Positions 4,403 to 60,856 of a stretch of DNA of 64,000 nt are shown in pieces. Each line of letters begins with the position of its first letter. Position 1 is the stretch's first letter. The DNA is from Deroplatys truncata (taxonomy: Eukaryota; Arthropoda; Insecta; Mantodea; Mantidae), in NCBI GenBank assembly GCA_030765065.1, contig CM060984.1, forward strand, positions 83,477,988-83,541,987, written 5' to 3'. Under the pieces are notes generated by a model. That model had not been told where the DNA came from. It worked only from the letters and a program-made list of their open reading frames with translations, and made no database searches. The translations under genes were made by a program, and so were the position numbers.

Positions 4403-5313
4403 TCTGATGTGTTACACTCACATGACTTTCTCTACTCTTGTACAAACTATTTTTACAAACGCTTATTCTCCATCTACTTCATGCTAATCGAGATAAACAT
4501 TTGCAGACTCTATCTTATTGCTAATTTTCTTGTAGATGTAAGGGGAATATATATTTACAAGGGCAGTATCGAAATACAGTAGCCCTTAAGGACATACATA
4601 TCTCTTAATAGCTGGTTGCTAGGTGCAGCACCATTCCCTTTGCCACAGTTTATAACTCTTTGCATATCCAAGACAAAAAAATGAATAACGAATTCCCATT
4701 TCAGAAAATAAGTATTGAAGAATTTAAGAGAATAACAAGCAATATCTCGAAAATGGTTCACTCAAAAAAAATGTATATGACATAAATTGTGTATTTTAAC
4801 GCGATCTACATTTTTTGTGTAGTAACATTTTGTCTATCTCTTATGGTTTACCAGTTATGCAAAAGTCGTTCACAATGGAGAATACTTTTGGAGACATTCC
4901 CAGAAAATTTAAGACATACATTTTATTTGTCATTAAAATATCTTAAACCTATGATATTTTAATCAAAATCGTTAGAGCCCTTTTTGAGAAAATTAAACTT
5001 TTCGAAAAATCTTCCATGTAAAAGGTAATCTGGGGTGGGGGGATTTTCTTGAAAACCTTCGTGTCGCATCTCTGGAAGATACTGAACCCAAATACCAAGT
5101 TTGGTGTTTATCCGACTGTTCGTTTCTGAGTTATGCTTTTCACAGACAGACACACACACACAGACAGACAAGACACACACACGGACATGCTTCCAATATG
5201 CTTTTTTTGGATTCAGGGGGTCTCAAAACATACATTTCCGGTGAAATCTCGGTATGAATTTTTGGGTGGAATACAATACTTCCCCTACTTACTATACGTA
5301 GTAGAGAAAGTAA
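4403..5313 (+). mobile_element. HL repeat, young full-length copy (subfamily A)
   Basis: The copy starts TCTGATGTGTTACACTC and ends AGTAGAGAAAGTAA. The inverted motif CTTTCTCTACT lies about 25 bp inside the 5' end and AGTAGAGAAAG lies at the 3' end. A hairpin with CTACT and AGTAG arms directly precedes the 3' end. A CA/CAGA tract lies near 5140-5185. It is 911 bp long, AT-rich and has no mobility gene. Several 60-80 codon frames overlap in different frames over the 3' half and are not taken as coding. Confidence 0.85.
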
Positions 5314-5835
5314 AAAGGAATAGTAACTTAGAACTTCGAATAAAGTATAACGTATTTGAAAATACAAGCCAATAATAAAAAAATATCTCGGAAATGGTTA
5401 AAACATTTTAACCATCTACATGTTTATGCAGTAACGTTTTGTTTATTCTTATGGTTTATCAGTTAAATAAAATTATACTTCCCGAATAAAGGACATTTCA
5501 CAGGCCATTCGCAGAAAGGTCAAAACCTTCATTTTATTAATCATATAAATATCTTAAACATATGACAATCTAAATTGTTAGAACCTATTTTGAGAAGCTT
5601 AAAAGTAACGAAACTTTTTCAATGTGAAGTGTAGTTTGGGGTGGAGGGAGTTTCTTGAAAATCTTCTCGTCAAGTTGATGGAAGACGCTGAACTTAACAT
5701 ACGTTATGTGGTATTTATCGGACTTTTCGTTTTTGAGTTTTGCTGTTCACGCGCGTACTTTTTCTAAAATATCTTTTTTATTCATGATATCGCATATTTG
5801 GGTGGAATACATTACTTCCTCTACCTGCAATGTGT
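5314..5835 (+). repeat. Old HL repeat, 3' part
   Basis: This is the continuation of 4171-4402. It contains the older-group blocks ATCTCGGAAATGG, TTATGGTTTATCAGTTA, GGGGTGGAGGGAG and GGGTGGAATACATTACTTCC in the family order. The junction with 4402 is explained by comparing the uninterrupted older copy at 7128, where GACCACAAGAAAAGAAAG runs straight into the following block. Confidence 0.7.
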
Positions 5836-5854
5836 AAGTATAGGGTATACAACG

Positions 5855-6337
5855 AAGGAGAACCCCTCGCACTCTGCAACCCACGGGAGATCTATTGCGG
5901 CTACCATCCCCCAGGAGGAAGGGGTGAAGTGAAGGAACCACAGGAGGCTACACGTCACAGGCAGACAGACCACAGAAACATGCGAAAGATCCTAATAGTT
6001 CCTGGCTCGAAGACCCGTCCCACTACTGGAGCTACCCAGAGAGGGTGATGAACGACCCGTCAACCAAGCAGTCTTCTAGTGTCCACAGGTCAAGCATCCG
6101 GACCATCTGCTCGACACCGCTTCACGCCACGAAACCTGAAACACGAGAAGGAAACGAACGAAAGGGAAATGATGGGAAGGAAATCGTGGTAGATGAGAAA
6201 CCACGCCACCATTCGCCTATGGTCTAGGAAAGACCAGGCAAACCCAAGGACAGTATGGATGGTCGACGGGAATCTAACCCGAGACCTCCCGAATGCGAGT
6301 CTCACATATTACCGCAGAGCCATCTCGCTCGGTCAAT
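5855..6337 (-). mobile_element. SINE family B, copy 1
   Basis: On the minus strand the head starts near 6337 with CCGAGCGAGATGGCTCTGCG and has a degenerate B box near 6275. The body has GGCGAATGGTGGCGTGG and a run of CT-rich blocks, matching the layout of 16232-16700 and 38195-38320. The 3' end abuts an old HL copy. Confidence 0.6.
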
Positions 6338-7127
6338 GCTTAGTTGCTAGAGAAAGTAACAATTTACAGTTATCAAAAGCAATGTGCAATGTTCCCATCT
6401 GTTTCACCACATCTCAGATTTACAAACATTAGTGCTCTATTCTATAAATTATAAAATATGTGTTTAGGGATTTACATCGTTTTCTCAAGACACGTAAACT
6501 TCTTTCTCGGGTTAGCTAACACGTTCTTCATTACTACCTCACAAATGTCAATGGCATCTGAAAAGCAGACATAACTGTTAATCCGCAGCAAATGACTGAT
6601 ATTAAGAACCGGGGAGAGAAACCGACTTCCTGTTCCGCTAGCGGCAGGTTAAGTAAGAACACGGGATATGAGCGAGCGCTTTGTGATAACGATTTGCGTC
6701 AATAAAGATGACGATGATGATAATGACGAATCTGATGGCACGGATCTCCACTAAACGTGCTGTGCCATAGTAGCTTTGCACTTTACAATAAACATCAAAC
6801 ATCATAAAACACGACCTAAAGTCCTAAGCTTGACATTTCGTGTAACTGTGTCAAAGATTATTTTCGATTCGATTCTTGGGCTGCGTATTGCTTTGTTTTC
6901 TTTATCGTTCATGCTCCATGAATAATTCTAAACTCTAAAATATCAGCGAAAGCTTACAATTGAAAAAATACCTGTTCTCTAATTAGGAATTGTTAATGCC
7001 ATTCAAGTCACTGACATCACATTCTTTTATCTACAAGATAATATATATTTAATTAAAGTGAAAATGTCACATTGTGCTTTTCATACCTAGCTCTGCGTAT
7101 ACATTGAGTAAATGAATTGCTCCTAAA
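6338..7127. other. AT-rich gap without a recognised feature
   Basis: No domain signature, repeat block or RNA gene recognised on either strand over about 790 bp. Confidence 0.5.
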
Positions 7128-7589
7128 TCTGATGTGTTACATTCACGTGCATTTCTCGACCCATCCTTCTCCAAACTATTCTTCTATCTTCTTGTTAATG
7201 AATATAAACGTTTGCAGAAATGATTTATTGCACATTTCGCTGTAGGTACCAGAAGCATACAGAAGGCTGAAGCCATATTCACGTGTTTAAAAAGCTGGTA
7301 GCTATATGCCGGCATTGAAATGCCGCTATTTGCACGACCACAAGAAAAGAAAGACGAATAGCGACTTAGCACTTGAAAACAATTTGAAGTATTTGAAAAT
7401 TTAAACCAATAACAAAGAAATGCCACCTGCTCGGAAATGGTTAATGACAAAAAACATTTCACACAATTGTGAGACTTAACCAGATCTATATTTTTTGTGA
7501 GGTAAGTTTGTTGTATATTTCTTAGCATTTACAGTTATATGGTAAAAGGGAACAGGACTTTCATAGTGAAAAGAGCTTCACTGACATTT

Positions 7590-7626
7590 GAAGAAGAAGA
7601 AGAAGAAGAAGAAGAAGAAGAAGAAA
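7590..7626. repeat. GAA microsatellite
   Basis: About 12 GAA units within an old HL copy; they account for the glutamate run in the frame starting at 7539. Confidence 0.9.
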
Positions 7627-7659
7627 AACTAGGATATGCATTTTATTTGCCATGCAAAT

Positions 7660-7661
7660 AT

Positions 7662-7715
<54 letters not shown>
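7660..7715. repeat. TA microsatellite
   Basis: More than 25 TA units within an old HL copy. Confidence 0.9.
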
Positions 7716-7718
<3 letters not shown>

Positions 7719-7754
7719 TTTTAATCAAAAGACACACAGCCATATCTTTATTCC

Positions 7755-8985
7755 CCCAACGTTTTCAACTATATTCGAAAAAATTGTGTATTTTTAACTC
7801 ATCACATATCTAAATTTTTTTTTCTAAATTAAATAATTTCCAACGTGGATTTCGAGAAAAATGCTCAACAATATCCGCTTTATTAAAAATTAGATCAATG
7901 ATGTTTCACAAATGATAGATGGAAATAACATACCGCTGTTCATACACGTGATAACCCAACATCTTTCTACTGTCTGAGTCGAAATGTTAAACAAATTAGA
8001 ATTTTACGGTATCAGGAACATAGAATTAGCCTGGTTCGAAAACTTTCACAAATACCATAAACAGAAGATAATTCTAAACCATTCTATAGGAGTGGTGCAG
8101 TCAAACCGGAAAAGAATAAAAACAGGTGTCCCTTAAGTCCTCTGCTCTATATATTGTATACAAACGACCTCCCAAACTGTGTAAATTGTAAAGCAGTAAT
8201 GTATGCAGACTATGCAGCTATTTTATACTGAAAAGCATAAACAATGGAGAGTTGTTATATAATGCAACAGAAATGCTGTCCCATTTAAAGAATTGCCTTA
8301 GCAGTAATGGATTAAAGCTAAAGACCTCAAAAACGTGCATTATGCACATTCGTACTCAAGACAAACCGCATGTAGATAATATACTAATAAAACAGACAGA
8401 TACTGCAACAATCTTAGGAGTGGATGTATATATGCAGTGGTACAATCACATTCATTACGTAAACAAAAAATTAAACAGTGCTTGCTTTAATATGCGCTGC
8501 ATAGCTCAAATTACCAACCTGAAACTAGAAAGATAGTCTGTTTCAGTTACTTTCACTCTATAAGGGCATACGGGATCATGCTATGGGGCAACTCAGCCCC
8601 ATATCTATCTTCAAGTGTGAGAAAAAATTATATGCACAATGTTACAGGTTGGACCAAAAGAATCGTGCAGGAATCTATTAATAAATAAAAAAATGCTAAC
8701 ATTACCAGCAGAATACCTATATGAACTAAATAAATACATTCATGCAAGTTTTGACAAGTTGTATGGTTCATAACCTCAGCATTATCACGAAAATAGAACA
8801 AATTGAAACCACCCATGCATAGCTTAACACTACACGAAAAAAGTGCACTTTATGCAGGAATACGAACCAACCCAAATCAAGACTATAAAGGATCCAGGAC
8901 TATTTAATAAGCAATTGAAGAACCTACTATTACACAAGGCCTACTACTCAGTAGCCGACTTGTACGCTGGGACTTAATTCTAAAC
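7755..8985 (+). pseudogene. Jockey-like non-LTR retrotransposon reverse transcriptase, broken
   Basis: The family protein copies element RNA into DNA at a nicked target. Frame-corrected reading shows the expected order: a QRGFR-like finger block (FQRGFREKCSTISAL, near 7838), NKLEFYGIRN near 7990, TGVP directly followed by a stop at about 8125, LLYILYTNDLPN near 8145, and the catalytic box YADY at 8202-8213. The box normally reads YADD, so the second aspartate codon is lost. The thumb region is the longest open piece (8252-8536), followed by a SIRAYGIMLWGN block near 8560 and the C-terminal LFNKQLKNLLLHKAYYSVAD block near 8905. Endonuclease and ORF1 are absent. Stops and frameshifts throughout mean it is inactive. 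The clade call rests on the motif style only. Confidence 0.75.
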
Positions 8986-9109
8986 AGTCAAAACTAACCA
9001 AGTTTGGGCACATACTTAACGGAGGTGTACTAAGGGATAAGGTGCAGTAAGGCTTTGCCTTCTCTGTTAATATTTCCTTATTACACAAAATTATACAAAA
9101 TCCAATCAA

Positions 9110-9530
9110 ATAAAAGGAAGTTCACAGGATTTTTGGTGAAACTTTAAGATTTATTTCTCATGACAATGAATTAAATATATGACATTTTAATCAAACTCGT
9201 CAGAGCCGTTTTTGAGAAACTGAAAAATAACAAAAATGTTTGTATGTGAATGATAGTATGGGATGGGGGGATTTCTTAAAAATCTTCATGTTGCATTCTT
9301 AAAGGATGCTGAACCTATGTAAACAGTTTGATATTTAACCTACTTTTCGTTTTTGAGTGACGCTGTTCACAGAAAAAGCACACAAACGTACGCAGAGCTT
9401 CTTTTAAAAAGACTTTTTTTAATTCAGGGGATCCCAAAACATGTGTTTTGGGTAAAATCTTGATAGGTATAGAATTTTTAAGTGGAATACAATACTTCCT
9501 ATACCTAATATAAGTAAGTGATAGAGAACT
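9110..9530 (+). repeat. Old HL repeat, 3' half
   Basis: Blocks in family order: TTTTAATCAAA, GAGCCGTTTTTGAGAAA, GATGGGGGGATTTCTT, TTTTTGAGTGACGCTGTTCAC, and a 3' end reading CCTAATATAAGTAAGTGATAG. The 5' half is missing. Confidence 0.7.
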
Positions 9531-10229
9531 TAAAATTGAAAACTATGTGTACTTGAAGGATGTGATTTAGAACGTCGTTGTGGATTCTAAAGCAATTATT
9601 ATACTCGAATACCACGGAATAAGATTTAGGCGCTGAAAGTAGCTACTAGGTACGTAAATTTTAAAGAAGTTCCTTCGGGTCTCTCGGTAAAGAGTTCATT
9701 ATCACCACTATAAAGTTATTACGGTATTTCTTGCTAATAAAATCCCCCCTGCCATAGCCACACAAAGAAGCGATTAATGGCATCCATTGTTTATTATTGC
9801 TTATATGGGTAGCGTGGACGTGCATCACAACAGATGTTAATTGCTGGTTTCGGTAGCCGGGGCATAAACGTTACTTCATTAGCACCTTCCTTCCCGCTGC
9901 TGCGCTGGAAGAAGCCTCGGGCACTAGGCGCCTAGGTTTACCTACTTTGAGCTGTAACCATGAATCAAACATAATGGCTCTTTTTACCATTCACAATAAA
10001 TCAGAGTGCAAGAGATTTAGCGCAGTTGCTGTTTTCTATGCGCAGTTTTCATATCTCTGACGCTGGTAACTTATCAGGTATTAAAACCTCCAGTGTGGAC
10101 GAGGTTCTTCACCTTGCCTGCAAGTTACTGACTAGGGTGAACATTATTTCTTTGAACTTCCGATAAATATTTCAACGTTATTTCCGCATAATTTATTGCT
10201 TAATTTTAAATCAATTTCTAGGCAAAATT
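9531..10229. other. Gap without a recognised feature
   Basis: About 700 bp with slightly higher GC at 9800-9960. No second copy or domain signature was seen. Confidence 0.45.
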
Positions 10230-10397
10230 CAGATATGTTTCACTTACATGATTTCTGCCTACTCTTCTACAAATTATTCTTATAAAGCCTTATTTATCTT
10301 TCTACTTCATACTGTTGAAAATAATAGTTTCATTATACACTTCGTTGTAACTACAAGAGGGATACAGAAGACTGAATCCATGACAAAATGTTTAAAA
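10230..10397 (+). repeat. Oldest HL copy of a three-level nest, 5' part
   Basis: The segment begins TCAGATATGTTTCACTTAC and follows the older-group 5' third. It is cut at TGTTTAA, and its continuation is found at 13322, where GTGGGTCGCTATGTGCTGG follows as in other older copies. Confidence 0.65.
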
Positions 10398-10600
10398 TCT
10401 GATGTGTTACATTCACACGACTCTCTACCCTCTATATCTTATTAGTGGGTACATATATTCTTATGAAACTTTATCTTCCTATTTACTTCATTTCAATTTA
10501 GATAAAGGTTTCCAGAAATAGCTGCATTACACATTTCGTCATAGACACAAAAGGAACAGTAATGGCCAAATGTTTTAGAACTGGACGCTACACACTGGCC
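10398..10600 (+). repeat. Middle HL copy of the nest, 5' part
   Basis: It starts TCTGATGTGTTACATTCAC and runs to CACTGGCC. It is cut at TTAA by the Kolobok-like element and continues at 12689. Confidence 0.7.
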
Positions 10601-10604
10601 TTAA

Positions 10605-12684
10605 GGGGCACTGGGAGTGAAGTTTAAGGTGAAAATGACAAAATTTTCGATTTTGGAATTATATCATACAAGTATTCTATAGACGCTTGTGAATCATTTT
10701 GGCCATACATTTTTTACGATCTGCCATTTTTAAAAGCTCATCGACATGTTTAAATCAGCCGTGCGCTTCCTTAAAACTCCACTCGACCCGCCCACTTTCT
10801 ATTTATATATGTAAAGCATCAAAATTTGTTAATTTCTACATATTTTTCTATTTATTTGGCCGCATTTTGTGACCACATGTAATTACCTGCTTTGTGATGC
10901 CATCTAGCGCTTAAATGCATAACTATTTACTACGCAATGAAGACAAGTTTAGAAATTTGAAAGGAAAAATTATATTTTGGTACTGTAAGAGTCTATTTCA
11001 TTAAAATTCTCTCCATTTACCCATATCATCTTATTTTACAGCATTTTGCAGTTATTTTAATACGTTATTGGTTGTTTAAGGCTTTGTTTATATATCTATC
11101 TTACAGATCTTTTGATACACTTTGTTGTTTATGTACCATATTCAGCAACAATTGTGGTTTTTGCCCTACCCAGAAATATCTCAGTCCTCGTATCATTGTA
11201 GACAAAAAATCTAGAGGTTTCTATATGAAATAAATAGAAAATGTATAATGCCATTTTTAGCAAATTAACCTTTTTACCAATAGAAATGCTATAGTAGAAA
11301 ATATTCGTGATAAATGTGGTATGAAAGAGGTTATTTATGCCATCGTCAGTCACTGCATGTCAACAGACAACGAACCCCAGCATGGCAAATGTCCCAATGA
11401 CACTGACTCCTGGTGCTTTTTCAACAAAAGTATAGCTAATGGTACACAACCTGATACCAGTGATAAAATGTTCATACAGCTTTCTGAATCAACTGTTTCC
11501 AAGATAATGCCTGTTTACCAAAGACTAGCCTGTGATGAGCTGTTGAATAAATGTGTAAGAGATGTTACACAAAATCAACATGAATCGCTGCGTGCCATGT
11601 TACAGTAGAATGTCCAAAAGAAATATTTGTATTAAAGAAGAGCTGTTGCTGTAACAAATGCTGGTCACAATTTAATATGGGGTGCTCAGCTACAGAAGAA
11701 ATGAAATCTATTATAAAGAATTGTACAATTTGCAGTGTATCAGATGTGATTATGAAGAGATACGATAACATGAGGAAAATACGAGTGTGCTCAATCTTCA
11801 ACTAAGAAGAAGAAAACAGCTTGCAGCAAGAGTAAATTACCAAAAAAGAAAAAAGAGGAAGTCAAATAGAAAAAGGATGAGAAAACATATGCTTCAGGGC
11901 AGTTATAAGTACCTGATAAGCTGTAAATTTAAAAAGAATGTGCATGATTTAGAAATATTTTTTTTCTCAGTTTTTCATTTTTGCACATGAAATTGATTCC
12001 TTGCATTTCAGTTTTGCTCTGATTTGTATGTAAATTTGCACACATCTCCTCAAATATAATATATAAAGATTCAAGTATGCATTTTTATGATTGTTTTACT
12101 CATTAGCTCGCAAAATATTAATTTATACTAAAAAAATGCAAAGCATACAATTCACTGTTTCCCAGCATAATATTATAAAATCAGTGTTTTTATCAAAACT
12201 TCATTTTCACACATTCAAAATGATGCTTTAAAATGAGTTTTTGTTTAAATACAGCTAAACTTTCTCAGAATCTGCAGAAGTATCCATTGTAACATTCTAT
12301 GTGACAAAAATATGCCTAACACTAATAATATATTTTTAAAAATATATTTTATATGAAAAAAATAAGATTAAAATTTCTAAAGTTTTGAAAAAATTATCTT
12401 AATGGAATCATCAAAAGTTATAGAAATTTCTTCAACTTGATTCAAAGCTTCAATCCCAAAAATATCAACCAATTTTCCGAACATCTAATGCGTGTGGATA
12501 ATTTTGAATATGCGTTACATTTACATAATAAAATTTATGAAATAAGTAATATCTCACAAAGTATTTATCCAACTTAAATGAAATTTGGTATTCACATTAA
12601 TCTAACAGCAATGGAATCACAGTAAAATTTTAAGAAATATCCATACAATAATATGGAAATTTAAAAATTCACTCCCAGTGTCCC
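10605..12684 (+). mobile_element. Kolobok-like DNA transposon with TTAA target duplication
   Basis: The ends are inverted repeats: GGGGCACTGGGAGTGAA at the left, and at the right the reverse complement of GGGACACTGGGAGTGAA. They are flanked on both sides by TTAA (10601-10604 and 12685-12688). The host HL sequence elsewhere (near 47196) reads CTGGCCTTAAAGTTTC without an insertion, so the pre-insertion site had a single TTAA. The element is 2080 bp long and carries a decayed transposase relic at about 11321-11990. Known Kolobok elements duplicate TTAA and begin with purine/G-rich ends; piggyBac also uses TTAA but has C-rich starts and a different protein. Confidence 0.75.
11321..11990 (+). pseudogene. 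Kolobok/Mutator-like transposase relic, C-terminal part
   Basis: The clearest open piece (11321-11608) contains DNEPQHGKCPNDTDSWC, a CP-x-SWC block, and ends with a TQNQHESL block that corresponds to NPNESFN in the second family member at 57276-58996. After a frame break there is an AVAVTNAG block near 11645. A basic C-terminal part (QLAARVNYQKRKKRKSNRKR, 11818 onward) ends with KHMLQGSYKYL. This is the C-terminal half only; the N-terminal basic region and first catalytic segment are not recognisable upstream. No function is likely to remain. The family assignment combines the homologue at 57-59 kb with the TTAA ends of this element. Confidence 0.65.
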
Positions 12685-18573: not shown

Positions 18574-19435
18574 TTACTTTCTCTACTACGTATAGTAAGT
18601 AGGGGAAGTATTGTATTCCACCCAAAAATTCGATACCGAGATTTCACCGGAAATACATGTTTTGAGACTCACTGAATCCAAAAAAAGCATTTTTGGAAAC
18701 ATGTCCGTGTGTGTCTGTCTGTGTGTCTGTCTGTGTGTCTGTGAACAGCATAACTCAAAAACGAAGAGTCGGATAAACACCAAACTTGGTATTTAGGTTC
18801 AGTATCTTTCAGAGATGCGACACGAAGGTTTTCAAGAAAATCCCCCCACCCCAGACTACCCTTTACATGGAACATTTTTCTAAAATTTTAATTTTCTCAA
18901 AAACGGCTCTAACGATTTTGATTAAAATATCATATGTTTAAGATATTGTCATGACAAATAAAATGTATATCTCGAATTTTCTGGGAATGTCTCCAAAAGT
19001 ATTCTTCGTTATGAACGACTTTTTCATAACTGGTAAACCATAAGAGATAGACAAACTTTTACTACACGAAAAATGTAGATCGCGTTAAAATACATAATTT
19101 ATGTCATATACATTTCTTTTGTTGAGTGAACCGTTTGCGAGATATTGCTTGTTATTCCCTTAAATTTTCCAATACTTATACTTTTTCTCAAATTCGTTAT
19201 TCATTTTTTTTATGTCCTGGACATGCAAAGAGAATGGAATGCGCCACATAGCAACCAGCGTTAAAATATTTGACTATCGCTTAAAACCTACCATATTCCC
19301 CTTGCATCTACAAGAAAATTATCAATAAGATTGACATCTCGATATCTCCATTAACATGAAGCATATGGAGAATAAGCGTTTGTAAAAATAGTTTGTACAA
19401 GAGTAGAGAAAGTCATGTGAGTGTAACACATCAGA
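18574..19435 (-). mobile_element. HL repeat, young full-length copy (subfamily B)
   Basis: Minus-oriented, 862 bp. It ends at 18574 with the reverse complement of AGTAGAGAAAGTAA and starts at 19435 with TCTGATGTG. It has the 3' hairpin arms, the CTTTCTCTACT inverted motif at both ends and the CAGA tract. The subfamily B 5' third includes GGGGAATATGGTAGGTTTTA and GCGCATTCCATTCTC. Confidence 0.85.
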
Positions 19436-19503: not shown

Positions 19504-20348
19504 TCTGATGTGTTACACTCACATGACTTTCCCTACTCTTGTACAAACTATTTTTACAAACGCATATTCTCCATATGCTTCATGTTAATCCAGATATCGA
19601 GATGTCAATCTTATTGCTAATTTTCTTGTAGATGCAAGGGGAATATGGTAGGTTTTAAGCGATAGTCAAATATTTTAACGCTGGTTGCTATGTGGCGCAT
19701 TCCATTCTCTTTGCATGTCCAGGATATAAAAAAAATTAATAACGAATTTGAGAAAAAGTAAAAGTATTGGAAAATTTAAGGGAATAACAAGAATATCTCG
19801 AAAACGGTTCACTCAAAATAAGAAATGTATATGACATAAATTGTGTATTTTAACGCGATGTACATTTTTTGTGTTGTAAAATTTTGTCTGTCTCTTATGG
19901 TTTACAGTTATGCAAAAGTCGTTCACAATGAAGAATACTTTTGGAGACATTCCCAGAAAAGTCGAGATATACATTTCATTTCTCATGACAATATCTTAAA
20001 CATATGATATTTTAATGAAAATCGTTAGAGCCATTTTTGAGAAAATTAAAATTTTCGAAAAATGTTCCATGTAAAGTGTAGTCTGGGGCGGGGGGATTTT
20101 CTTGAAAACCTTCGTGTCGCATCTCTGGAAGATACTGAACCTAAATACCAAGTTTGGTGTTTATCCTTCTGTTCGTTTCTGAGTTATGCTGTTCACAGAC
20201 ACACAGACACACACACGGACATGTTTCCAAAAATGCTTTTTTTGGATTCAGGGGTCTCAAAACATGTATTTTCGGTGAAATCTCGGTATCGAATTTTTGG
20301 GTGGAATACAATACTTCCCCTACTTACTATACGTAGTAGAGAAAGTAA
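19504..20348 (+). mobile_element. HL repeat, young full-length copy (subfamily B), head-to-head with 18574
   Basis: Plus-oriented, 845 bp, with all family landmarks. It faces the minus copy 18574-19435 across a 68 bp spacer, so the pair forms a palindrome of about 1.8 kb. It is followed directly by another HL fragment, at an A/T-rich junction reading GTAATAATAACGAATTTCC. Confidence 0.85.
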
Positions 20349-20611
20349 TAATAACGAATTTCCATTTGAGAAAAAGTATAAGTATTGGAAAATTCAAACA
20401 AATAACAAGGAATATCTCGGATATGGTTCACTCGACATACAACATGTATATAACATAAATTGTGCGTTTTAATAAGATCTACATTTTGTGTGTAGAAACA
20501 TTTTGTCTATCTCTTACGATTTGCCAGTTATGCAAAATTCATTCAGAATGAACACGGCTTTTGGGGGCATTCCCGGCAAATTCTACTTACTATACGTAGT
20601 AGATAAAGTAA
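20349..20611 (+). repeat. HL fragment with an internal deletion joining to the 3' hairpin
   Basis: The block from TAACGAATTTCC to CATTCCCGGCAAATTC is followed at once by the 3' end TACTTACTATACGTAGTAG. About 450 bp of the normal unit is missing between these two parts. Confidence 0.65.
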
Positions 20612-24952: not shown

Positions 24953-25449
24953 GTATTGCATTCCACCCAAAAATTCGATATCGAGATTTCATCGGAAATA
25001 CATGTTTTGAGGCCCCCTGGAATCATAAAAGCATTTTTACAAAAGGGTCGTGCGTGTGTCTGTGTATCTGTGAACAGCATAACTCAAAAACGAAAAGTCA
25101 GATAAGTACCAAACTTGGTATTTATGTTCAGTATCTTTCAAAGATGCGACACGAATATTTGAAGGAAAATCCCCCACCACAGGCTACATGGAATATTTTT
25201 CGAAAATTTTGATTTTCTCAAAAATTGTTTTAACGATTTTGATTAAAATATTATATGTTTAAAATGCTTTTATGGCAAATCAAATATATATATATATATA
25301 TATTGAATTTTCTGGGTATGTCCCCAAAAGTCCTCTTCATTCTGAATGAATTTTGCATAGCTAGTAGACCTTAAGAGATAGTCAAAATTTTACTATACAA
25401 ATAATGTAGATCTCGTTAACATACACAATTTATGTCATATACATTTCTT
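24953..25449 (-). repeat. HL repeat, 3' half (second piece, lacking the 3' hairpin)
   Basis: It begins at the CATTCCACCCAAAAATTCG block without the usual hairpin end. It runs to TATGTCATATACATTTC, where the young copy at 25450 is inserted. It has its own TA tract near 25288. Confidence 0.65.
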
Positions 25450-26285
25450 TTACTTTCTCTACTACGTATAGTAAGTAGGGGAAGTATTGTATTCCACCCA
25501 AAAACTCGATACCGAGATTTCACCGGAAATATATGTTTTGAGACCCCTTAAATCCATAAAAGCATTTTGGAAACATGTCTGTGTGTGTCTGTGATCAGCA
25601 TAACTCAGAAACGAACAGTCGGATAAACACCAAACTTGGTATTTAGGTTCAGTATCTTCCAGAGATGCGACACAAAGGTTTTCAAGATATTCCCCCATCC
25701 CAGATTACCCTTTACATGGAACATTTTTCGAAAATTTTAATTTTCTCAAAAACGGCTCTAACGATTTTGATTAAAATATCATATGTTTAAGATATTTGCA
25801 TAGCAAATGAAATGTATATCCCGAATTTTCTGGGAATGTCTCCAAAAGTATTCTACATTTGAATGACTTTGGCATAACTGATAAACCATAAGTGATAGAC
25901 AAAATTTTACTACACAAAAAATGTTAAAATGCGTTAAAATACACAATTTACGTCATATATATATTTTTGTTGTTGAATGAACCATTTTCGAGATATTGCT
26001 TGTTATTCCCTTAAATTTTCCAATACGTATACTTTTTCTAAATGGGAATTCGTTGTTCATTTTTTTTTGTCCTGGTAATGCAAAGAGAATGGAATACTCC
26101 ACATAGCAACCAGCTCTTAAAATATTTGACTATCGCTTAAAGCCTTTCCCCTTGCATCTACAAGAAAATTACCAATAAGATTAACATCTCGATATCTCGA
26201 TTAACATGAAGCATATGGAGAATAAGCGTTTGTAAAAGTAGTTTGTACTAGAGTAGAGAAAGTCATGTGAGTGTAACACATCAGA
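25450..26285 (-). mobile_element. HL repeat, young full-length copy (subfamily B)
   Basis: Minus-oriented, 836 bp, with the 3' hairpin, CAGA-type tract, inverted end motifs and 5' end TCTGATGTG. It is inserted within another HL copy whose 5' part follows at 26286. Confidence 0.85.
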
Positions 26286-26519
26286 ATTTTTTGTCCTGGA
26301 CATGTAAAGAGAATGAAATGCTCCACATAGAAACTAGTTCTTAAAAGATTTGACTACCGCTTAAAGCCTACCATATTCCCCTTGCACCTATAAGAAAATT
26401 AGTAATACGATAGCTTCTGCTAATACTTATATCGATTAACATGAAGTAGATGAGAATAAGCATTTGTAAAAATAGTTGGTACAAGAGTAGAGAAAGTCAT
26501 GTGAGTGTAACACATCAGA
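26286..26519 (-). repeat. HL repeat, 5' part of the host copy
   Basis: It runs from TTTTTTGTCCTGGACATG to the 5' end at 26519, followed by a T run of about 17. The 5' third matches subfamily B. Part of the normal unit between this piece and 25449 is missing. Confidence 0.75.
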
Positions 26520-30406: not shown

Positions 30407-31100
30407 TAATAATAATTCTAATAAAACTTCTTCTATTAAAGTCACGTTACAGACGAGAAAAATTATAATTTATTGTGGACTCTCCAATTTATAAATTTGC
30501 TTCAAATGAATTAGCTTTATTAATGGACAGAAATCATCTATGGGATGCGTTTGAATTGCATGAATTAACGGAAATAGTGAGTCAAAGAAATGAACTAGAA
30601 TTAGTGAAAGTCTGAAATAATTCAGCCATTGGGGGAAAATCACAAACGACAGATATGCAGGAGTACAATGAAAAGAGAATAACAAGCCATTATGCAGAAG
30701 AGTTTATATCAGTAGCAAGAGACTTCATTATAGGAAAAATATCTGAGAGCTCTAAAAACGTAATCTTGAATGTAGTGTAAAACAAAAAGCTAACGGAAGT
30801 AAATGGATTACCTCATGAATTAAGGTTGAAAATCGGTTTTAAGTACACGATAACGAGCAATATAGATGTAGAGGATGGTTTAGCGGCATCAATTTCTCTG
30901 AGTATGCCGCAAGCGCACGGAGCTTGCGGCATTCTCAACCGCAATGAGTTAAGTATGAAATCGAAACAGAATTCCTGTTAACCTTGTATAATATTACTGG
31001 GTCGTAAAGTAAGAATGGTGTCATTCATATATTATATAAAAAACAAAAATATTAGCCAAATTTTAACACTATTAGATTCAAAAAGGCAAATATTAAATGT
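30407..31100. other. Gap with a perfect GC-rich hairpin at 30904-30932
   Basis: Apart from the hairpin no feature was recognised. The minus frame at 30470-30685 has no family signature. Confidence 0.5.
30904..30932. repeat. Perfect 11 bp hairpin, 7 nt loop
   Basis: ATGCCGCAAGC at 30904-30914 and GCTTGCGGCAT at 30922-30932 are exact reverse complements. After one mismatch the pairing continues for four more base pairs (TGAG with CTCA). Confidence 0.85.
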
Positions 31101-31102
31101 AT

Positions 31103-31397: not shown

Positions 31398-32108
31398 TTT
31401 CACCGGAATTACAGCAAATTAAAAAAACAACATTTTTAGCAAATGTCCGTGTGTGGCTGTGTGTGTATGTGTGTGTGAGCAGCATAATTCAAAAAAGAAA
31501 GAACAGATAAATACCATTATCTACAAAGATGAGACACAGAGATTTTGAATAAAATTCGCGACCATAAAATACCATTTACATGGAAAGGTTTTGTAAAGTT
31601 CTGATTTTCTCAAAACGGCTCTAACGATTTGGATTAAAATACCACATATTTATAATATTTGTATAACAAATAAAAGCCTACTTTTATTTTCTGGGAATAG
31701 CCTATGAAGTCCCCTTCATTCGAAATAAACTTTGTTTAATTTTGGATAACTGGTAAACGTTAAGAGATTCATAGAAACGTAGAGCACAGTAAAAGTAAAT
31801 ATCTTTAGAACACATGCTTTATTTTAAATAACCTTTTTATGGCATCAACCGTTTTCGAGGTAACCGTTATTATGGTTTTTAGAAGTTTTCAATAATTCGT
31901 CATTTGTTAGTGTGTTGTCGCTATTCAGTTATTTCTCGCGATTACATGGAAACAGTAAGAAAGTTCAAGGCCAGGATATAGCTACTGGTTTAAACATCTG
32001 ACTGGCGATTTTGTTCCTCTATCCCCCTTGTATGTACAACGAAATGTGAAATGAAATTATTTTTACTGAGGTTTATCTAGACCGACATGAAGTAAATAGA
32101 AAAAAAAT
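31398..32108 (-). repeat. Old HL repeat, host of the insertion at 32109 (3' part)
   Basis: Minus-oriented, from CACCGGAATTACAG through a GTGT tract, CTCTAACGATTTGGATTAAA and GGTAAACGTTAAGAG to CATGAAGTAAATAGAAAA. The expected next block (AATAAGCTTTTGTAA) is found after the insertion at 33001. Confidence 0.7.
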
Positions 32109-33000
32109 TCTGATGTGTTACACTCACATGACTTTCTCTACTCTTGTACAAACTATTTTTACAAACGCTTATTCTCCATCTACTTCATGTTAATCGAGAT
32201 AAACATTTGCAGAGTCTATCTTATTGCTAAGTTTCTTGTAGATGTAAGGGGAATATATATTTACAAGGGCAATATAGAAATACAGTAGCCTTTAAGCACA
32301 TACATATCTCTTAATAGCTGGTTGCTATGTGCAGCACCATTCCCTTTACCACAGATTAATACTCTTTGCATATCCAAGACAAAAATGAATAATGAATTCC
32401 CATTTTAGAAAATAAGTACCTATTGAAAAATTTAAGGGAATAACAAACAATATCTCGAAAATGGTTCACTCAACAACAAAAATGTATATGACATAAATTG
32501 TGTATTTTAACGCGATCTACATCTTTTGTGTAGTAAAATTTTGTCTATCTCTTATGGTTTACCAGTTTACCAAAAGTCGTTCACAATGAAGAATACTTTT
32601 GGAGACATTCCCAGAAAATTCAAGATATACATTTTATTTGTCATGAAAATATCTTAAACATATGATATTTCAATCAAAGTCGTTAGAGCCATTTTTGAGA
32701 AAATTAAAATTTTCGAAAAATGTTCCATGGGGTGGGGGGATTTTCTTGAAAACCTTCGTGTCGCATCTCTGGAAGATACTAAACCTAAATACCAAGTTTG
32801 GTGTTTATCCGACTGTTCGTTTCTGAGTTATGCTGTTCACAGACATACAAACACACAGACACACACACGGACATGTTTCCAAAAATACTTTTTTGGATTC
32901 AGGAGGTCTCAAAACATGTATTTCCGGTGAAATCTCGGTATCGAATTTTTGGGTGGAATACAATACTTCCCCTACTTACTATACGTAGTAGAGAAAGTAA
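32109..33000 (+). mobile_element. HL repeat, young full-length copy (subfamily A)
   Basis: Plus-oriented, 892 bp, with all family landmarks. It is inserted in the opposite orientation into an older copy. The uninterrupted relative near 40367 shows the target as GAAAAATAAGC, so the site lies in an A/T tract and no clear target duplication beyond A/T bases is seen. Confidence 0.85.
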
Positions 33001-33085
33001 TAAGCTTTTGTAAAATTGTTTGTAGAAGCTATACGAAAATAAATCATAGTGGGTAGAGAAAGACACGCGAATATAAGTGCCGTGG
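33001..33085 (-). repeat. Old HL repeat, 5' end of the host
   Basis: This is the continuation of 31398-32108. It has TAAGCTTTTGTAAAATTG and GTGGGTAGAGAAAGACACG, which is the older-group 5' inverted motif. Confidence 0.65.
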
Positions 33086-47672: not shown

Positions 47673-48928
47673 CGAGGACAGTCCCAGAAGTACCTGACCT
47701 GACGTATATATAGCGGTTGTTGTTTCAAAAAATGACTATGGTAGAAAGTACCACCCTTATAAAGCTTAAGTTTGAAGTTTGATGATGCTACGTTGTTTAG
47801 TAATTGTTTGACAACCATTAATAGTGAAGTCTCTCAGCGAATTTGTAAACATGGATAAAACTGGTCATCGTTTTGTGATACAATACTTTCATTTGAAAGG
47901 TCTTAGTCCAACTAATCTTAAAGCCGAGCTAGATTCTACTCTGGGGGAGTCCGCTCCTTCGTTTACAACAGTAAAATATTGGGTGGCAGAATTTAAGCGA
48001 GGCCGTACGAGCTGCCAGGACGAACATCGCAGTGGTCGACCAAATGAGGTGACCACACCAGAAATTGTGCAGAAAATCCACAAAATGGTATTGGATAACC
48101 GTCAACTGAAAGTGCGCGAGCTAGCAGACATTGTAGGTATTTCAAAAAGTGCTGTACATTGTATACTGACTGAAAATTTGGACATGAGAAAGCTGTGCAC
48201 AAGATGGGTGCCGCGTTTACTCAGAATGGAAAATGCAGCATCGTGAGAATGTTTCAGTCAAGTGTTTGGCGATATTTCGCTGCAATAAAGCCGAGTTTTT
48301 GCGTCGATTCATAACCATAGATGAAACATGGGTCCATCACTTCACACCTGATACGAAGGAACAGTCAAAATAGTGGATTGAAAGGGGAGAATCGGCTCCA
48401 AAGAAGGCAAAGACATCTGCAGGCAAGGTCAAGGCGTCAGTTTTTTTGGGATGCGCGTGGGATGCGCAATCAATCGCGAATATTGTGCAAACTTATTGCA
48501 GCGTTTGAATGATGAAATCAAATAAAATCGGTTGCATTTAGCGAAAAAGAAAGTTCTGTTTCATCAAGACAATGCATCACTTCACACATCCATTATCACC
48601 ACGGCGAAAATCAATGAGTTGAAGTTCGAATTGCTTCCTCACGCATCCTATTCGCCAGACTTAGCCCCATCTGATTATTTTCTGTTTCCAAAGTTCAAGA
48701 AATGGCTTGGTGGTAAAATATTTGCCAACAATAAAGAGGTGGAGTTTGCAGTTGATGGCTATTTTGCAGAACTCGACGGTTCTCATATAAGCAGGATATC
48801 GAAGCTATTGAACATCGCTGGGAAAAGTGTATCCAGCTGAAAGGAGACTATATAGAGAAATAAAGATGTTTTTTCCCAAAATGTTTGTGTTTTCTTTGTT
48901 AGGTCGGGTACTTCTGAAACAGCCCTCA
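47673..48928 (+). mobile_element. Mariner transposon, full length, decayed
   Basis: The inverted ends are 28 bp: the left runs 47673-47700 with CAGAAGTACC in the centre, and the right runs 48901-48928, with about five mismatches between them. TA is present on both sides (47671-47672, 48929-48930). The length of 1256 bp is usual for mariner. It inserted into an old HL copy: the HL text ACTGAACTCTTA plus TA plus GAATTTGGTATTTTC is continuous once the element is removed. Confidence 0.9.
47851..48840 (+). pseudogene. Mariner transposase pseudogene (D,D34D)
   Basis: The active family protein cuts and joins element DNA at TA sites. The chosen start is the methionine of MDKTGHRF at 47851. The N-terminal helix-turn-helix part is intact to about 48235, including KVRELADIVGISKSAVH and RWVPRLL. 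A frameshift follows near 48236. The first catalytic aspartate lies in ITIDETWVHH (codon at 48320), followed by a stop after KEQSK and a deletion or frameshift near 48470, where part of the core is damaged. The last part is open from 48532 to 48840 with FHQDNASLHTS (codon 48568) and SPDLAPSDYF (codon 48673). The spacing between these two aspartates is 34 residues, as in mariner. All three catalytic codons survive, but the protein cannot be made. Confidence 0.9.
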
Positions 48929-54308: not shown

Positions 54309-54431
54309 TTATATTTTCATGACATTTCTTTGTTTTTGGTCTTTCACGAAGTTACATCGGACCTATCTATATCATAACTCTCCGAAAGAAAGTTTATTCA
54401 TGGTTGAATTAGCAGGTGGATTTTAAAGATA

Positions 54432-54822: not shown

Positions 54823-54894
54823 TTATTAAGACGCTCGTGAACTGTTCGGCGTGAGCGAGCGTCAAAAGTTACTCGTCACTCGTGTCTTAATAAC
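54823..54894. repeat. Imperfect foldback with GTTATTAAGAC arms
   Basis: The left arm GTTATTAAGACGCTCGTGA and the right arm, as the reverse complement GTTATTAAGACACGAGTGA, differ by a few bases around a 30-35 nt loop. It lies upstream of the Crypton-like fragment on that fragment's strand. Confidence 0.6.
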
Positions 54895-55609: not shown

Positions 55610-55724
55610 TACTTTCTCTAATGCAGGTCAAGCAAGCATTACATTCGATCCAAAACTTGATACTGGGATTTGAGTGGAAATATACGCGTTTTGAGATCCC
55701 TTGAAACAAAACCCTCTAAAAAAA
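55610..55724 (-). repeat. Old HL 3'-end fragment
   Basis: TTTTACTTTCTCTAATGCAG, ATTACATTCGATCCAAAAC and GTTTTGAGATCCCTTGAA. It is cut by the young copy at 55725; no clear continuation was found on the far side. Confidence 0.6.
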
Positions 55725-56617
55725 TCTGATGTGTTACACTCACACGACTTTCTCTACTCTTGTACAAACTATTTTTACAAACGCTTCTTCTCCATCTACT
55801 TCATGTTAATCGAGATAAACATTTGCAGACTCTATCTTATTGCTAATTTTCTTGTAGATGTAAGGGGAATATATATTTACAAGGGCAAAGTAGCCTTTAA
55901 GCACATACATATCTCTTAATAGCTGGTTGCTAGGTGCAGCACTATTCCCTTTGCCACAGATTAATACTCTTTGCATATACAAGACAAAGAAATGAATAAC
56001 GAATTCCCATTTGAGAAAATAAGTATTGAAAATAAGGGAATAACAAGCAATATCTCGAAAATGGTTCACTCAACAAAAAAATGTATATGACATAAATTGT
56101 GTATTTTAACGCGATCTACATTTTTTGTGTAGTAAAATTTTGTCTATCTCTTATGGTTTACCAGTTATGCAAAAGTCGTTCGCAATGAAGAATACTTTTG
56201 GAGACATTCCCAGAAAATTAAAGATATACATTTTATTTATCATGAAAATATCTTAAACATATGATATTTTAATCAAAATCGTTAGAGCCATTTTTGAGAA
56301 AATTAAACTTTTCGAAAAATGTTCCATGTAAAGGATACTCTGTGGTGGGGGGAGTTTCTTGAAAACCTTCGTGTCGCATCCTTGGAAGATACTGAACCTA
56401 AATACCAAGTTTGGTGTTTATCCGACTGTTCGTTTCTGAGTTATGCTGTTCACAGACAGACACACAGACAGACACACACACACGGACATGTTTCCAAAAA
56501 TGCTTTTTTTTGGATTCAGGGGATCTCAAAACATGTATTTCCGGTGAAATCTCGGTATCGAATTTTTGGGTGGAATACAATACTTCCCCTACTTACTATA
56601 CGTAGTAGAGAAAGTAA
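55725..56617 (+). mobile_element. HL repeat, young full-length copy (subfamily A)
   Basis: Plus-oriented, 893 bp, with all landmarks. It is very similar to 4403-5313 and 32109-33000, including GGGGAATATATATTTACAAG and GTGCAGCACTATTCC. The CAGA tract is at about 56452-56484. Confidence 0.85.
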
Positions 56618-57275
56618 AAATCTGTCAAAAGTTTGTGTGACCATTCATATTAGATTTCACAATTAAGAGTACTAGATAGCAAAAGGTCTAAAAAGTTCCT
56701 TTTTTAAATTTTCCTGGAAAAATCTTCAAATATTGTAGAATTACGATCAAAATTCTACTTTTGACATTCTGGCTATTTACATGCCCAAACAAGATGTTAA
56801 AACGGAGGTGTGTGTGTGTGCAAATAATGCATGGAATTTTAAAACTTAATTTTCTCGTAATATTGTTTTCATACTTTTTTGTTTTGTTTGCTTAGGGAAG
56901 GTTGTAAGCTGATTTTGTTTTCAAAAATATCGAAATTGATTCCCTGTTATAAATGTAAAAGTAAATGTCCATTTTATAAAAATCTGTTATCATTTTGCAT
57001 ACAACGACATGGATCCCAAACGGGCATAAGTGGCATTTAAATTCAGTTTAAACACCCAAGGTAGCTTGTGCCACGCCCCCTTCTTTGTTTAGAAAGTGTA
57101 GTAGGTATCTAAAACACAGTTTTTCTTGTCTAAGTTAGCGGCAGCTATAGGATATATTTTTTGTTGCGTTGAAGGGAAATGTGTGCGAGGGCAACACTGA
57201 TTGTGAAGGTAAATTCAACGTGTTTACCACTAGCTGAGCCTGTAAGTGAATGTGTTGCAAAATTTGTTTTCGGCA
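56618..57275. other. Probable 5' flank of the second Kolobok-like element
   Basis: A GTGT tract lies near 56808-56820. No terminal inverted repeat like that of 10605-12684 could be placed, so the left boundary of the element is unknown. Confidence 0.35.
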
Positions 57276-58996
57276 TGACAAAGCCAAATAAATGGTATAA
57301 AAAGCGGGCTGGAGGTCCAGGAAGGGGCAAAAAGAAGTGTGTAGAGGGTGTAAATAATATTAGTGTAATTAGTAGTAATGTAAATAATAATGCAGGTAGT
57401 GTTGCTAGTGAAAGTTCCAATTATAATAATGTGGGGGAGCTACCCCAAAAAGTGAGTTCCACAGTTCAGAAAGGAAACTCTCTGCTGTAAAAGCTTTTTA
57501 TAGGGATACAAACATTGGCCTGGGCCTAAATGATAAATTAACTTGTGGTAGCATTACAGTTGATATAAATATACTTTCCGAAGTGCTTAGTAGATTTATG
57601 CAGTGCAAATTCATGATGGTGCTAATACATTATCTTGCTATGAATTTTAAACTAAAACAGTGAGCAATTTAGTGTTTATTTGTAGTGGTTCTGGTGCCCA
57701 AGGCTATGTTTACACCTCAGAACACCATAAAAATGGGCTGGACATAAACAACAGATTAGTGTATGGACACCAGTTTAGTATATAGGGAAAGGGCAAACTG
57801 CAAGGAAAACACTATATGATGTAATGAACTTGCCTGAACCACCCACTAGATTTTCATCTCATAATAAAACTTTAAGCAATGCTGTTAGGAAATGTGCTGA
57901 GTTGCCAATGTCAATTGCAGTGAGGAAAGCTGTAGTTTGTAATGGTGATTCCAAAGACCTAATTGTTGCTCTTAATAACAGTTGGCAAAAGCGAGGACGC
58001 AAGAGTCATAATGGTGTGGTCTCAGCAACAGGTGTGGCAACAGGTAAAATTCTTGATGTTGATGTGTCATCAAAGTACTGTCAGGGATGTATTGCAAACA
58101 AAAACTATAAACAGAAACTAAAATTTCACAAAGAAAGCAGAAAGTGTAAAGCAGAGTATTTAGGGTTAGTGGTGGCATGCAGTGTGAGGGGTAGCGAGAA
58201 TCTTTAAATGTTCCCTATTTAGGTGTGGTGTAAGGTACACACAATATTTAGAGGATGGGGATGTAGTAGAAAGGAAACTATTGGGATGTGCAAAATGAAA
58301 AATTGCAAAGTGTGGGGCAAGTGCAAAAGCGTATGGGAACCAGACTTAGAAAACTGAAAAAGGATCTCAGGGGCCAAAACCTACGCGATGGTAACAGTGT
58401 TTCTGGGAAGGGCAGGCTAACTGAGAATGAAATAGACAACTTAGAGCACTATTATGACATGGCTATTCTTTTACAAGCTGTCGACAAATAAAAAGTCACA
58501 GCATGCGCTATGTCCTCAAGGTGAAGGACTCATGGTGCAAATTTAACAAAGCAATACTGGAGAAGGCATTCACTACTTTATTATGTAGGTGAAGCAATAA
58601 AACACACATTTAGGATCCCGGTTGACCCAAAACTTTTAAGTGCATGTTTGCATGGCAAATTCAAAATCCCAACGAATCCTTCAATAGTGTAGTGAGGACC
58701 AGAATTCCTAAAACTCTCTTTGTAGGGCATAATACTTTACAAATAGGTATTTTAGATGCTGTGTTCGCATTTAATGAAGGAAACTCAGATCGTGGGAAAG
58801 TGCTGCTGCAAGCAATGGAAATGGATTCTGGATGGAATGCGATGAAAATTTTTCAAGATATTGGCAATATAAGAATAGTAAAGGCACAGGCGAAGCAAGA
58901 ATCCAAGGAGGCTAGGGTGTTGCAGAGGAACCACAAGAGTCCATAAAGGATGAAGGTAATGACCCTGAACCAGAATATGGTTCTGTATTGTACTAA
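57276..58996 (+). pseudogene. Kolobok/Mutator-like transposase pseudogene, near full length
   Basis: The coding track is broken into at least five frame segments but covers a whole protein. The likely start is the methionine of MTKPNKWYKKRAGG, followed by a basic GGPGRGKKK part and a Ser/Asn-rich linker. Next come a worn segment with LDINNRLVYGHQ near 57740, NAVRKCAELPMSIAVRKAV from 57882, and NNSWQKRGRKSHNGVVSATG near 57980, where family members usually have DGTW, so the first acidic residue appears lost. They are followed by ILDVDVSSKYCQGC, GQVQKRMGTRLRKLKK (from about 58315), GRLTENEIDNLEHYY, a CPQGE block near 58510, NPNESFNSVVRTRIPKTLFVG, and AVFAFNEGNSDRGKVLL. The end is PEPEYGSVLY with TAA at 58994. 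It is homologous to the relic at 11321-11990 and is not functional. Confidence 0.7.
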
Positions 58997-59106
58997 ACGT
59001 AGCATTTCACTTTTTTGTTATTTTCCGCTAAGTTGATTTTTACGACACATTGGTCCCTATTTCTCTGGAAATACTAGACCTAGAATAATGAAACATTTAT
59101 CAGTTT

Positions 59107-59731
59107 TTACTTTCTCTACTACGTATAGTAAGTAGGGGAAGTATTGTATTCCACCCAAAAATTCGATACCGAGATTTCACCGGAAATACATGTTTTGAGA
59201 CCTCCTGAATCCGAAAAAAGCATTTTTGGAAACATGTCCGTGTGTGTGTCTGTGTGTGTCTGTCTGTGAACAGCATAACTCAGAAACGAACAGTCGGATA
59301 AACACCAAACTTGGTATTTAGGTTCAGTATCTTCCAAGGATGCGACACGAAGGTTTTCAAGAAAATCCCCCCACCCCAGGATACACTTTACATGGAAGAT
59401 TTTTCAAAAATTTTAATTTTCTCAAAATCGGCTCTAACGATTTTGATTAAAATATCATGTTTAAGATATTTTCATGACAAATAAAAGGTATATCTTGAAT
59501 TTTCTGGGAATGTCTCCAAAAGTGTTCTTCATTGTGAACGACTTTTGCATAACCGGTAAACCATAAGAGATAGAGAAAATTTTACTACACAAAAAATGTA
59601 GATCGCGTTAAAATACACAATTTATGTCATATACATTTTTGTTGTTGAGTGAACCATTTTCGAGATATTGCTTCTTATTCTCTTAAATTTTTCAATACTT
59701 ATTTTCTTAAATGAGAATTCGTTATTCATTT
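59107..59731 (-). mobile_element. HL repeat, subfamily A host copy, 3' part
   Basis: Minus-oriented, starting with the reverse complement of AGTAGAGAAAGTAA and running to GTTATTCATT, where the copy 59732-60592 is inserted. The remainder is at 60593-60856. Confidence 0.8.
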
Positions 59732-60592
59732 TTACTTTCTCTACTACGTATAGTAAGTAGGGGAAGTATTGCATTCCACTCAAAAATTCGATACCAAGAT
59801 TTCACCGGAAATACATGTTTTGAGACCTCCTGAATCCAAAAAAAGCATTTTTGGAAACATGTCCGTGTGTGTGTCTGTGTGTGTGTGTGTCTGTGTGTCT
59901 GTGAACAGCATAACTCAGAAACGAACAGTCGGATAAACACCAAACTTGTATTTAGGTTCAGTATCTTCCAGAGATGCGACACGAAGGTTTTCAAGAAAAT
60001 CCCCCACCCCAGACTACCCTTTACATGGAAGATTTTTCGAAAAGTTTAATTTTCTCAAAAATTGCTCCAACGATTTTGATGAAAATATTATACGTTTAAG
60101 ATAATGTCATGAGAAATGAAACGTATATCTCGAATTTTCTGGGAATGTCTCCAAAAGTACTCTTCATTGTGAACGACTTTTGCATAACTGGTAAACCATA
60201 AGAGATAGACAAAATTTTACTACACAAAAAAAGTAGATCGCGTTAAAATACACAACTTATGTCATATACATTTCTTTTGTTGAGTGAACCATTTTCGAGA
60301 TATTGCTTCTTATTTCCTTAAATTTTCCAATACTTATACTTTTTCTCAAATTCGTTATTCAGTTTTTTATGTCCTGGACATGCAAAGAGAATGGAGTGCG
60401 CCACATAGCAACCAGCGTTAAAATATTTGACTATGGCTTAAAACCTACCATATTTCCCTTGCATCTACAAGATAATTACCAATAAGATTGACATCTCGAT
60501 ATCTCGATTAACATGAAGCATATGCAGAATAAGCGTTTGTAAAATTAGATTGTACAAGAGTAGAGAAAGTCATGTGAGTGTAACACATCAGA
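59732..60592 (-). mobile_element. HL repeat, young full-length copy (subfamily B) nested in another HL copy
   Basis: Minus-oriented, 861 bp, same orientation as the host. Removing it rejoins GAATAACGAATT and the A tract before TCTTGGATATGC, as seen uninterrupted at 4663-4700 on the other strand. The CA/CAGA tract is at 59864-59900. Confidence 0.85.
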
Positions 60593-60856
60593 TTTTTTTG
60601 TCTTGGATATGCAAAGAATATTAATCTGTGGCAAAGGGAATGGTGCTGCACCTAGCAACCAGCTATTAAGAGATATGTATGTCCTTAAAGTCTACTGTAT
60701 TTCTATATTGCCCTTGTAAATATATATTCCCCTTACACCTACAAGAAAATTAGCAATAAGATAGAGTCTGCAAATGTTTATTTCAATTAACATGAAGTAG
60801 ATGGAGAATAAGCGTTTGTAAAAATAGTTTGTACAGGAGTAGAGTAACACATCAGA
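60593..60856 (-). repeat. HL repeat, subfamily A host copy, 5' part
   Basis: This is the continuation of 59107-59731. It has the subfamily A 5' third (GGAATGGTGCTGCACCTAGC) and ends at ACATCAGA. About 13 bp including part of the 5' inverted motif is deleted near 60843. Confidence 0.8.

Follow-up and report, generated by a model that had tools for sequence, protein, structure and literature searches.

The stretch of DNA analysed here (the window) comprises 64 kb of contig C10 in the 4.29-Gb, 818-contig genome assembly of Deroplatys truncata, and about a third of it consists of copies of one short repeat. Comparison of its ends and layout with a protein-coding element of the same genome indicates that this repeat is very probably a non-autonomous Helentron (HINE) of the DINE-1 kind: it would be a deletion derivative of that Helentron, composed of its first ~760 nt and its last ~33 nt with ~115 nt between them, and it probably moves in trans.

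When the copy at 4403-5313 was used as query, comparison of the window with itself gave about 60 matching stretches. The 41 full copies used for an nhmmer profile comprised seven from the window and 34 from 39 fetched loci, of which the remaining five were without one end. Searches with this profile identified 47 family pieces, spanning positions 1225 to 61601 and covering 20,657 of the 64,000 bases (32.3%; 33.3% once the autonomous element was added to the search). The reversed window gave no match to the profile, and the reversed control gave one when 40 random stretches (see below) were added. Of the 47 pieces, seven were full copies (836-911 bp), which leaves 40 others, and several of the 47 were parts of a single copy interrupted by another. 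The sequences TCTGATGTG and AGAGAAAGTAA occurred 11 and 15 times, respectively, in the window with both strands counted. A preliminary description had assigned roughly a third of the window to the family, in agreement with the profile, and had counted about 35 copies and fragments, which captured the abundance and fell short of the number of pieces. The upper end of its range for full copies (845-911 bp) was retained and the lower end is now 836 bp, and the family extends beyond the limits given at the time (4403 to 60856), with pieces at 1225-1718 and 61163-61601.

The reference copy (911 bp, 4403-5313, minus strand; strands are given in Helentron orientation, 5' TTACTTT... to 3' ...TCAGA) lies 2.8% from the consensus. 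Two other full copies on the minus strand were located with the profile, one of 893 bp (55725-56617, also placed by its distance from the consensus) and one of 892 bp (32109-33000), which according to a flank search is inserted in another repeat. Four copies belong to a second subfamily, about 9% from the consensus: 862 bp on the plus strand (18574-19435; profile and consensus distance), 845 bp on the minus strand (19504-20348), one flank of which (20350-20583) is family sequence, 836 bp on the plus strand (25450-26285), between family pieces at 24953-25450 and 26287-26519, and 861 bp on the plus strand (59732-60592). The last of these is nested at the 7-T tract of another plus-strand copy, of which the left half (profile positions 1-635) is found at 59107-59733 and the right half (profile positions 630-908) at 60592-60855; the two halves, together with the consensus, give the empty site.

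Structure and orientation of the short element

The consensus (907 nt) reads on the strand opposite to that of the preliminary description. It begins with TT-ACTTTCTCTACT and ends with AGTAGAGAAAGT-CATGTGAGTGTAACACAT-CAGA, the true 3' end being TCAGA (the reverse of TCTGA) before a run of T's, without CTRR. The short inverted motif noted near both ends corresponds to a 12-bp subterminal inverted repeat (subTIR), ACTTTCTCTACT, which is exact in the consensus; its two copies start at nt 3 and nt 23, each counted from its own end of the element. In the reference copy, the 5' subTIR (element nt 3-14, AGTAGAGAAAGT on the plus strand) is at 5300-5311 and the 3' subTIR (ACTTTCTCTACT on the plus strand), 22 nt from the 3' end, at 4425-4436, both on the minus strand. 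The 5' subTIR pairs with AGTAGGGGAAGT just inside it (5278-5289, minus strand), giving a 5' hairpin with one arm within the 5' subTIR, a feature of DINE-1. Folded as single-stranded DNA, this end was more stable than its shuffled versions (z = -3.16), with 1 of 200 shuffles equally good. The same hairpin had earlier been placed before the 3' end, and belongs to the 5' end because the element reads the other way round.

The remaining landmarks of the reference copy are a weak 3' terminal stem between the 3' subTIR and the 3' end (ATGTG-7 nt-CACAT, 4407-4423, minus strand), the previously noted CA/CAGA microsatellite (5141-5182), which lies within the 5' region common to the autonomous element, and two internal T-tracts, in element orientation, that are recurrent targets of nested insertions, one of 7 T (4675-4681, minus strand; consensus about 629-635) and one of 8 T (4764-4771, minus strand; consensus about 532-540). 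Both termini were sharp in the 41 short copies, which had been picked as full length. Of the HINE features, the subTIRs, the 5' inverted repeat, the T-rich target and an autonomous partner were found.

An autonomous Helentron with the same ends

The partner was found in a whole-genome search with Helitron_like_N, which gave at least 152 matches with 150 of 291 candidates scored; among the matches listed, at least 18 were located in open frames longer than 2,100 aa. Two long copies were read, one in full, on contig C9, and the second except for its 5' end, and these were 98.8-99.7% identical to each other. The C9 element (about 9.8 kb; positions 2253-12039 in the joined stretch) carries a single open reading frame (ORF) of 2,324 aa. 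Its first 757 bp matched the short element at 89%, and its termini matched the short consensus at 60 of the first 60 nt and 31 of the last 33 nt, and the short element can thus be described as the 5' block of the Helentron joined to its 3' tip. All 11 autonomous 3' ends (these two and nine further copies) terminated at the identical base before T's; the runs behind the nine further ends comprised 4 to 9 T, with at least 6 T in eight. The 5' end was observed in the C9 element and in four of six fetched 5' stretches (L123-L126); in L121 it lay outside the fetched stretch, and in L122 the end that was present belonged to an inserted HINE. A Rep/helicase gene sharing the ends of the repeat, suggested earlier as a check, therefore exists in this genome, and the former assignment to the Helentron-associated, DINE-1-like class is borne out by a partner with shared ends.

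Along the ORF, the order of domains was Herpes_teg_N, 21-aa tandem repeats in the reading frame, DUF6570 (1e-16), Helitron_like_N (1.1e-27), PIF1 (1.7e-28) and endonuclease. The last was matched by Exo_endo_phos_2 in the C-terminal 400 aa (5.3e-6; 26.7 bits against a cut-off of 27.4, or 0.7 bit below). Motifs that we take to be SPHEH, YIIKYISK, helicase and endonuclease-like motifs occurred in that order. The only other forward frame of at least 150 aa in the C9 element was one of 275 aa overlapping the repeats of the ORF. Herpes_teg_N (PF04843) matched at the N-terminus (aa about 38-276, 5.9e-11, in L070/L068), where no OTU match was obtained, and this Herpes_teg_N-like domain may be the counterpart of the OTU protease found in other Helentrons. 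No Helentron publication mentioning herpesvirus tegument was found in a search that most subscription papers lay outside. A search of IMG/VR viral contigs with 1,400 aa of the protein gave four pattern matches, none of which was confirmed as a relative.

Two other observations concern Rep and helicase sequences. A decayed Helentron helicase remnant with stops lies in the window at 30472-31101 (plus strand), in which 57% of the amino acids are identical to the autonomous ORF (aa 1778-2005). In the genome, 20 further Helitron_like_N loci (L048-L067) were of other Rep types. None resembled the Helentron core at the DNA level, and two of them matched the Helentron protein, at 24-27%.

Insertion sites, alternative readings and proposed mechanism

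The two bases before ACTTT were T in 41 and 40 of the 41 short copies, respectively, bases 2-5 after CAGA were T in 39-40, and the junctions were T-rich on both sides, as expected from the insertion into A/T tracts reported before. The left T-run was exactly 5 in 24 of the 41. Direct repeats of 5 nt were present in 25 copies, all of them poly-T (shuffled mean 22.7, P 0.083), while those of 6 nt were ATTTTT (L029) and one poly-T 6-mer; ATTTTT/ATTT in L029 and TATA in L032 were the only non-poly-T repeats of at least 4 nt. With the boundary set before TT, 33 repeats of 2 nt were found against 29.95 in shuffles (P 0.0065).

Empty sites were reconstructed from copies nested in family sequence, with 25450-26285 excluded as its flanks lie on different tracts. 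In the five nested copies with such a site (59732-60592, L029, L013, L023 and L037), CA followed by five bases stood on the left, reading TTTTT in four copies and CTTTT in the fifth, and the T-tract known from the empty site was preserved whole on the right; L029 had an additional A. For a sixth nested HINE, inside Helentron L122, the empty site TA-TTTTTTTT-CTATATTG was present in four near-identical copies, and the occupied site had 6 T on the left and 7 T on the right. At each of the six nested insertions, in tracts that ranged from 6 to 8 T, exactly five bases had been gained, almost all of them T. The joined flanks of L019 gave no empty site, both halves matching solely at their own locus, and the host repeat of 32109-33000 has spanning relatives, of which one 101-nt stretch was read, with a tract too divergent for T counts. 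As regards the absence of a clear target duplication in the preliminary description, no 5-nt repeat other than poly-T was found in the 41 copies, but every nested site with an empty counterpart gained five bases.

The gain represents either bases carried by the element or a 5-bp duplication, and both fit. Carried bases are weakly favoured because non-T sites are without a 5-nt repeat; a fixed-length duplication stays compatible with the data since the targets are poly-T. Such a duplication would be produced by a cut-and-paste miniature inverted-repeat transposable element that carries subterminal inverted repeats and whose insertion always duplicates the five bases TTTTT, and this reading draws on the five extra bases being constant whatever the tract length (6, 7 or 8 T), on the left runs of exactly 5 T, on the excess of 2-nt repeats with the boundary before TT, and on the 6-nt repeat ATTTTT created by the extra A in L029. 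It is nevertheless improbable: the 5-nt repeats consist of poly-T without exception, and their number is close to that in shuffled pairs, non-poly-T repeats of at least 4 nt are confined to L029 and L032, and there is no terminal inverted repeat, the repeat being subterminal (nt 3 and nt 23), with outermost bases that differ and asymmetric ends. In addition, the end-sharing coding elements that were read encode Rep/helicase rather than the DDE transposase named earlier as a refutation (no genome-wide DDE search was made).

Descent from a canonical Helitron (TC...CTRR, A^T target) would account for the rolling-circle Rep, the PIF1 helicase and the lack of a clear non-T duplication. This candidate, already rejected on its ends (TTACTT...TCAGA, without CTRR), is more improbable still given the subTIRs, the T-tract target, the endonuclease match and the separate Rep lineage in the genome (the 20 loci unlike the Helentron core). 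A short interspersed element or other retroposon with an A/T tail, suggested by copies adjoining A or T runs, was likewise discarded on the 5' and 3' ends shared with a DNA element, the Helentron, and is hardly conceivable with T-runs on both sides, fixed positions of the two ends among copies chosen for full length, and no tRNA found in the window.

Several observations weigh against classification as a HINE, which is nonetheless held with high confidence. The 3' stem (ATGTG/CACAT), found in the short and autonomous ends, did not fold better than shuffles (z = -1.09 and -0.69), and terminal columns were only mildly more conserved (97.4-97.6%) than columns elsewhere (94.7%). The autonomous 3' subTIR matched at 11 of 12 positions, and the short element has ~115 nt (rc 762-878) for which the two long copies gave no match. 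Exo_endo_phos_2 was not listed at 0.001 when 2,200 aa of the ORF were scanned, and no RPA frame was present among the forward-strand frames of the C9 element. The 3' subTIR is 22 nt from the element end, against 38-60 nt in the HINEs of the mite Metaseiulus occidentalis and of Culex, and the five bases gained at every one of the nested sites differ from the variable T number, with no modification, given for HINEs in the available portion of PMC4067079.

In other respects the HINE reading agrees with known systems. The families of Metaseiulus occidentalis and Culex were described with their Helentrons, and share with the present one palindromic subTIRs of 12-15 bp at 2-4 nt from the 5' end, a 3' palindrome (here a weak stem), a T-rich target and ends common to a Rep/PIF1/AP-endonuclease element; their Helentrons, as presented in the same portion, differ from the one found here, which is without an RPA frame on the forward strand and has an N-terminal Herpes_teg_N-like domain (PMC4067079). 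Drosophila DINE-1/INE-1 (PMC2374699, in part) has a 13-bp class of subTIR, an inverted repeat beside the 5' subTIR, a microsatellite, a 3' stem and a TT preference, according to that portion of PMC4067079. The likeness described is one of layout, and near-identical long-frame coding copies set the present family apart. Abundant HINEs do not always have a known autonomous partner: Cg_HINE of Crassostrea gigas, non-autonomous Helentrons also tied to tandem repeats and satellites, could not be related to autonomous elements by its authors, at least in the consulted part of PMC7492417, whereas a partner is identified here. The family belongs to a type already known, and combines a strong link to a partner, a tegument-like N-terminal domain in that partner and a very high load.

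Starting from the ends, end sharing, domains, target preference and copy number observed directly, established Helentron and Helitron models would have the Helentron protein (Rep HUH nickase, PIF1 helicase and AP-like endonuclease) nick beside TT at the 5' end; one strand would then be rolled off up to the 3' stem and TCAGA terminator, and the released strand joined into T-tracts. By the same analogy, nicking, strand displacement and termination of the short copies would depend on the Helentron protein. Young, near-identical long-frame Helentrons beside more than 100,000 exact ends would provide one system for the direct study of rolling-circle transposition, T-tract choice, the five-base gain and alternative 3' ends.

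Genome load, self-insertion and other repeats

In forty random 2-kb stretches from 16 long contigs, HINE sequence made up 12.5% (95% confidence interval 7.0-18.8%), with 17 of the 40 stretches hit; taken at face value, this extrapolates to about 540 Mb, equivalent to some 590,000 copies, and the window (32%) exceeds the average of the random stretches about 2.6-fold. Exact genome-wide counts were 114,152 for the 40-nt 5' end, including autonomous copies, and 134,395 for the 24-nt 3' end, including satellite units, with no occurrence of the backward-read version of either pattern. Full copies were a median of 3.4% from the consensus (Kimura two-parameter), older copies being under-represented because most copies were picked for high similarity. 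These values suggest that a single rolling-circle family has contributed heavily to a giant genome. Such a rolling-circle load is not unique, since in grasshoppers with large genomes all Helitrons together account for 7-20% in the repeatomes (in the available text of PMC7486953); for the silkworm genome, the corresponding figure is 4.23% (PMC3789558, in part).

A HINE 3' end also recurred about every 3,409 bp on the same strand, with a few gaps, over ~100 kb near the start of contig C1. Pattern matches were found at C1:20526-122784, a region whose start is overlapped by the stretch L127 (G000:C1:19500-27800). Two units differed at 39 of 3,409 bases, and the unit contained one complete 836-bp HINE similar to the second subfamily. 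Judged from its sequence, the array is a satellite that absorbed one HINE insertion. A whole HINE thus lies within the satellite unit here, whereas in Cg_HINE the tandem repeats are inside the element (PMC7492417, consulted part).

Of the 41 short copies, 15 had a flank running straight into family sequence, with five weak flank matches omitted from the count (L015, L028, L032, 32109-33000 and 55725-56617). In the random stretches, 108 of 535 A/T tracts of at least 5 nt were within the family, and the excess of self-targeting is therefore modest, at about twofold (Fisher P 0.015). Among the Helentrons, the 5' flank was informative in four (the C9 element, L123, L124 and L126). These had an outer 5' HINE piece in common, which was 97.7-99.2% identical between them, against 92-95% to the ten best other HINE copies, and for this reason the outer HINE 5' end seems to travel with the Helentrons. 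At the 3' side, five of the 11 autonomous copies were flanked by unrelated DNA and six by the 3' part of an outer HINE; these parts were 86-98% alike (92.8-98.3% among five with the same junction), less than the cores, and the six copies may have moved as a whole composite with the outer 3' end.

A tentative model, judged less likely than not, would unite these features in a single live Helentron system. Its own T-tracts would be preferred landing sites, with the fixed five-base gain perhaps reflecting a staggered endonuclease cut, and self-insertion would build tandem and composite elements. A unit from the outer HINE 5' end to either of two 3' ends would now carry the young Helentron with its tegument-protease-like N-terminus, and this loop would have supplied about one eighth of the 4.3-Gb genome and seeded a satellite.

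The repeat flanking the copy at 32109-33000 (32001-32108 and 33001-33070) contains a T-tract plus CTATTTACTTCATG and resembles the HINE 3' region. It is abundant (2,499 first-look candidates, of which 40 were scored) and is possibly an older related family. Elsewhere in the window, open frames on the plus strand matched a Mos1-type (mariner-like) helix-turn-helix domain at 47812-48246 and a Mutator-like transposase at 57779-58207.

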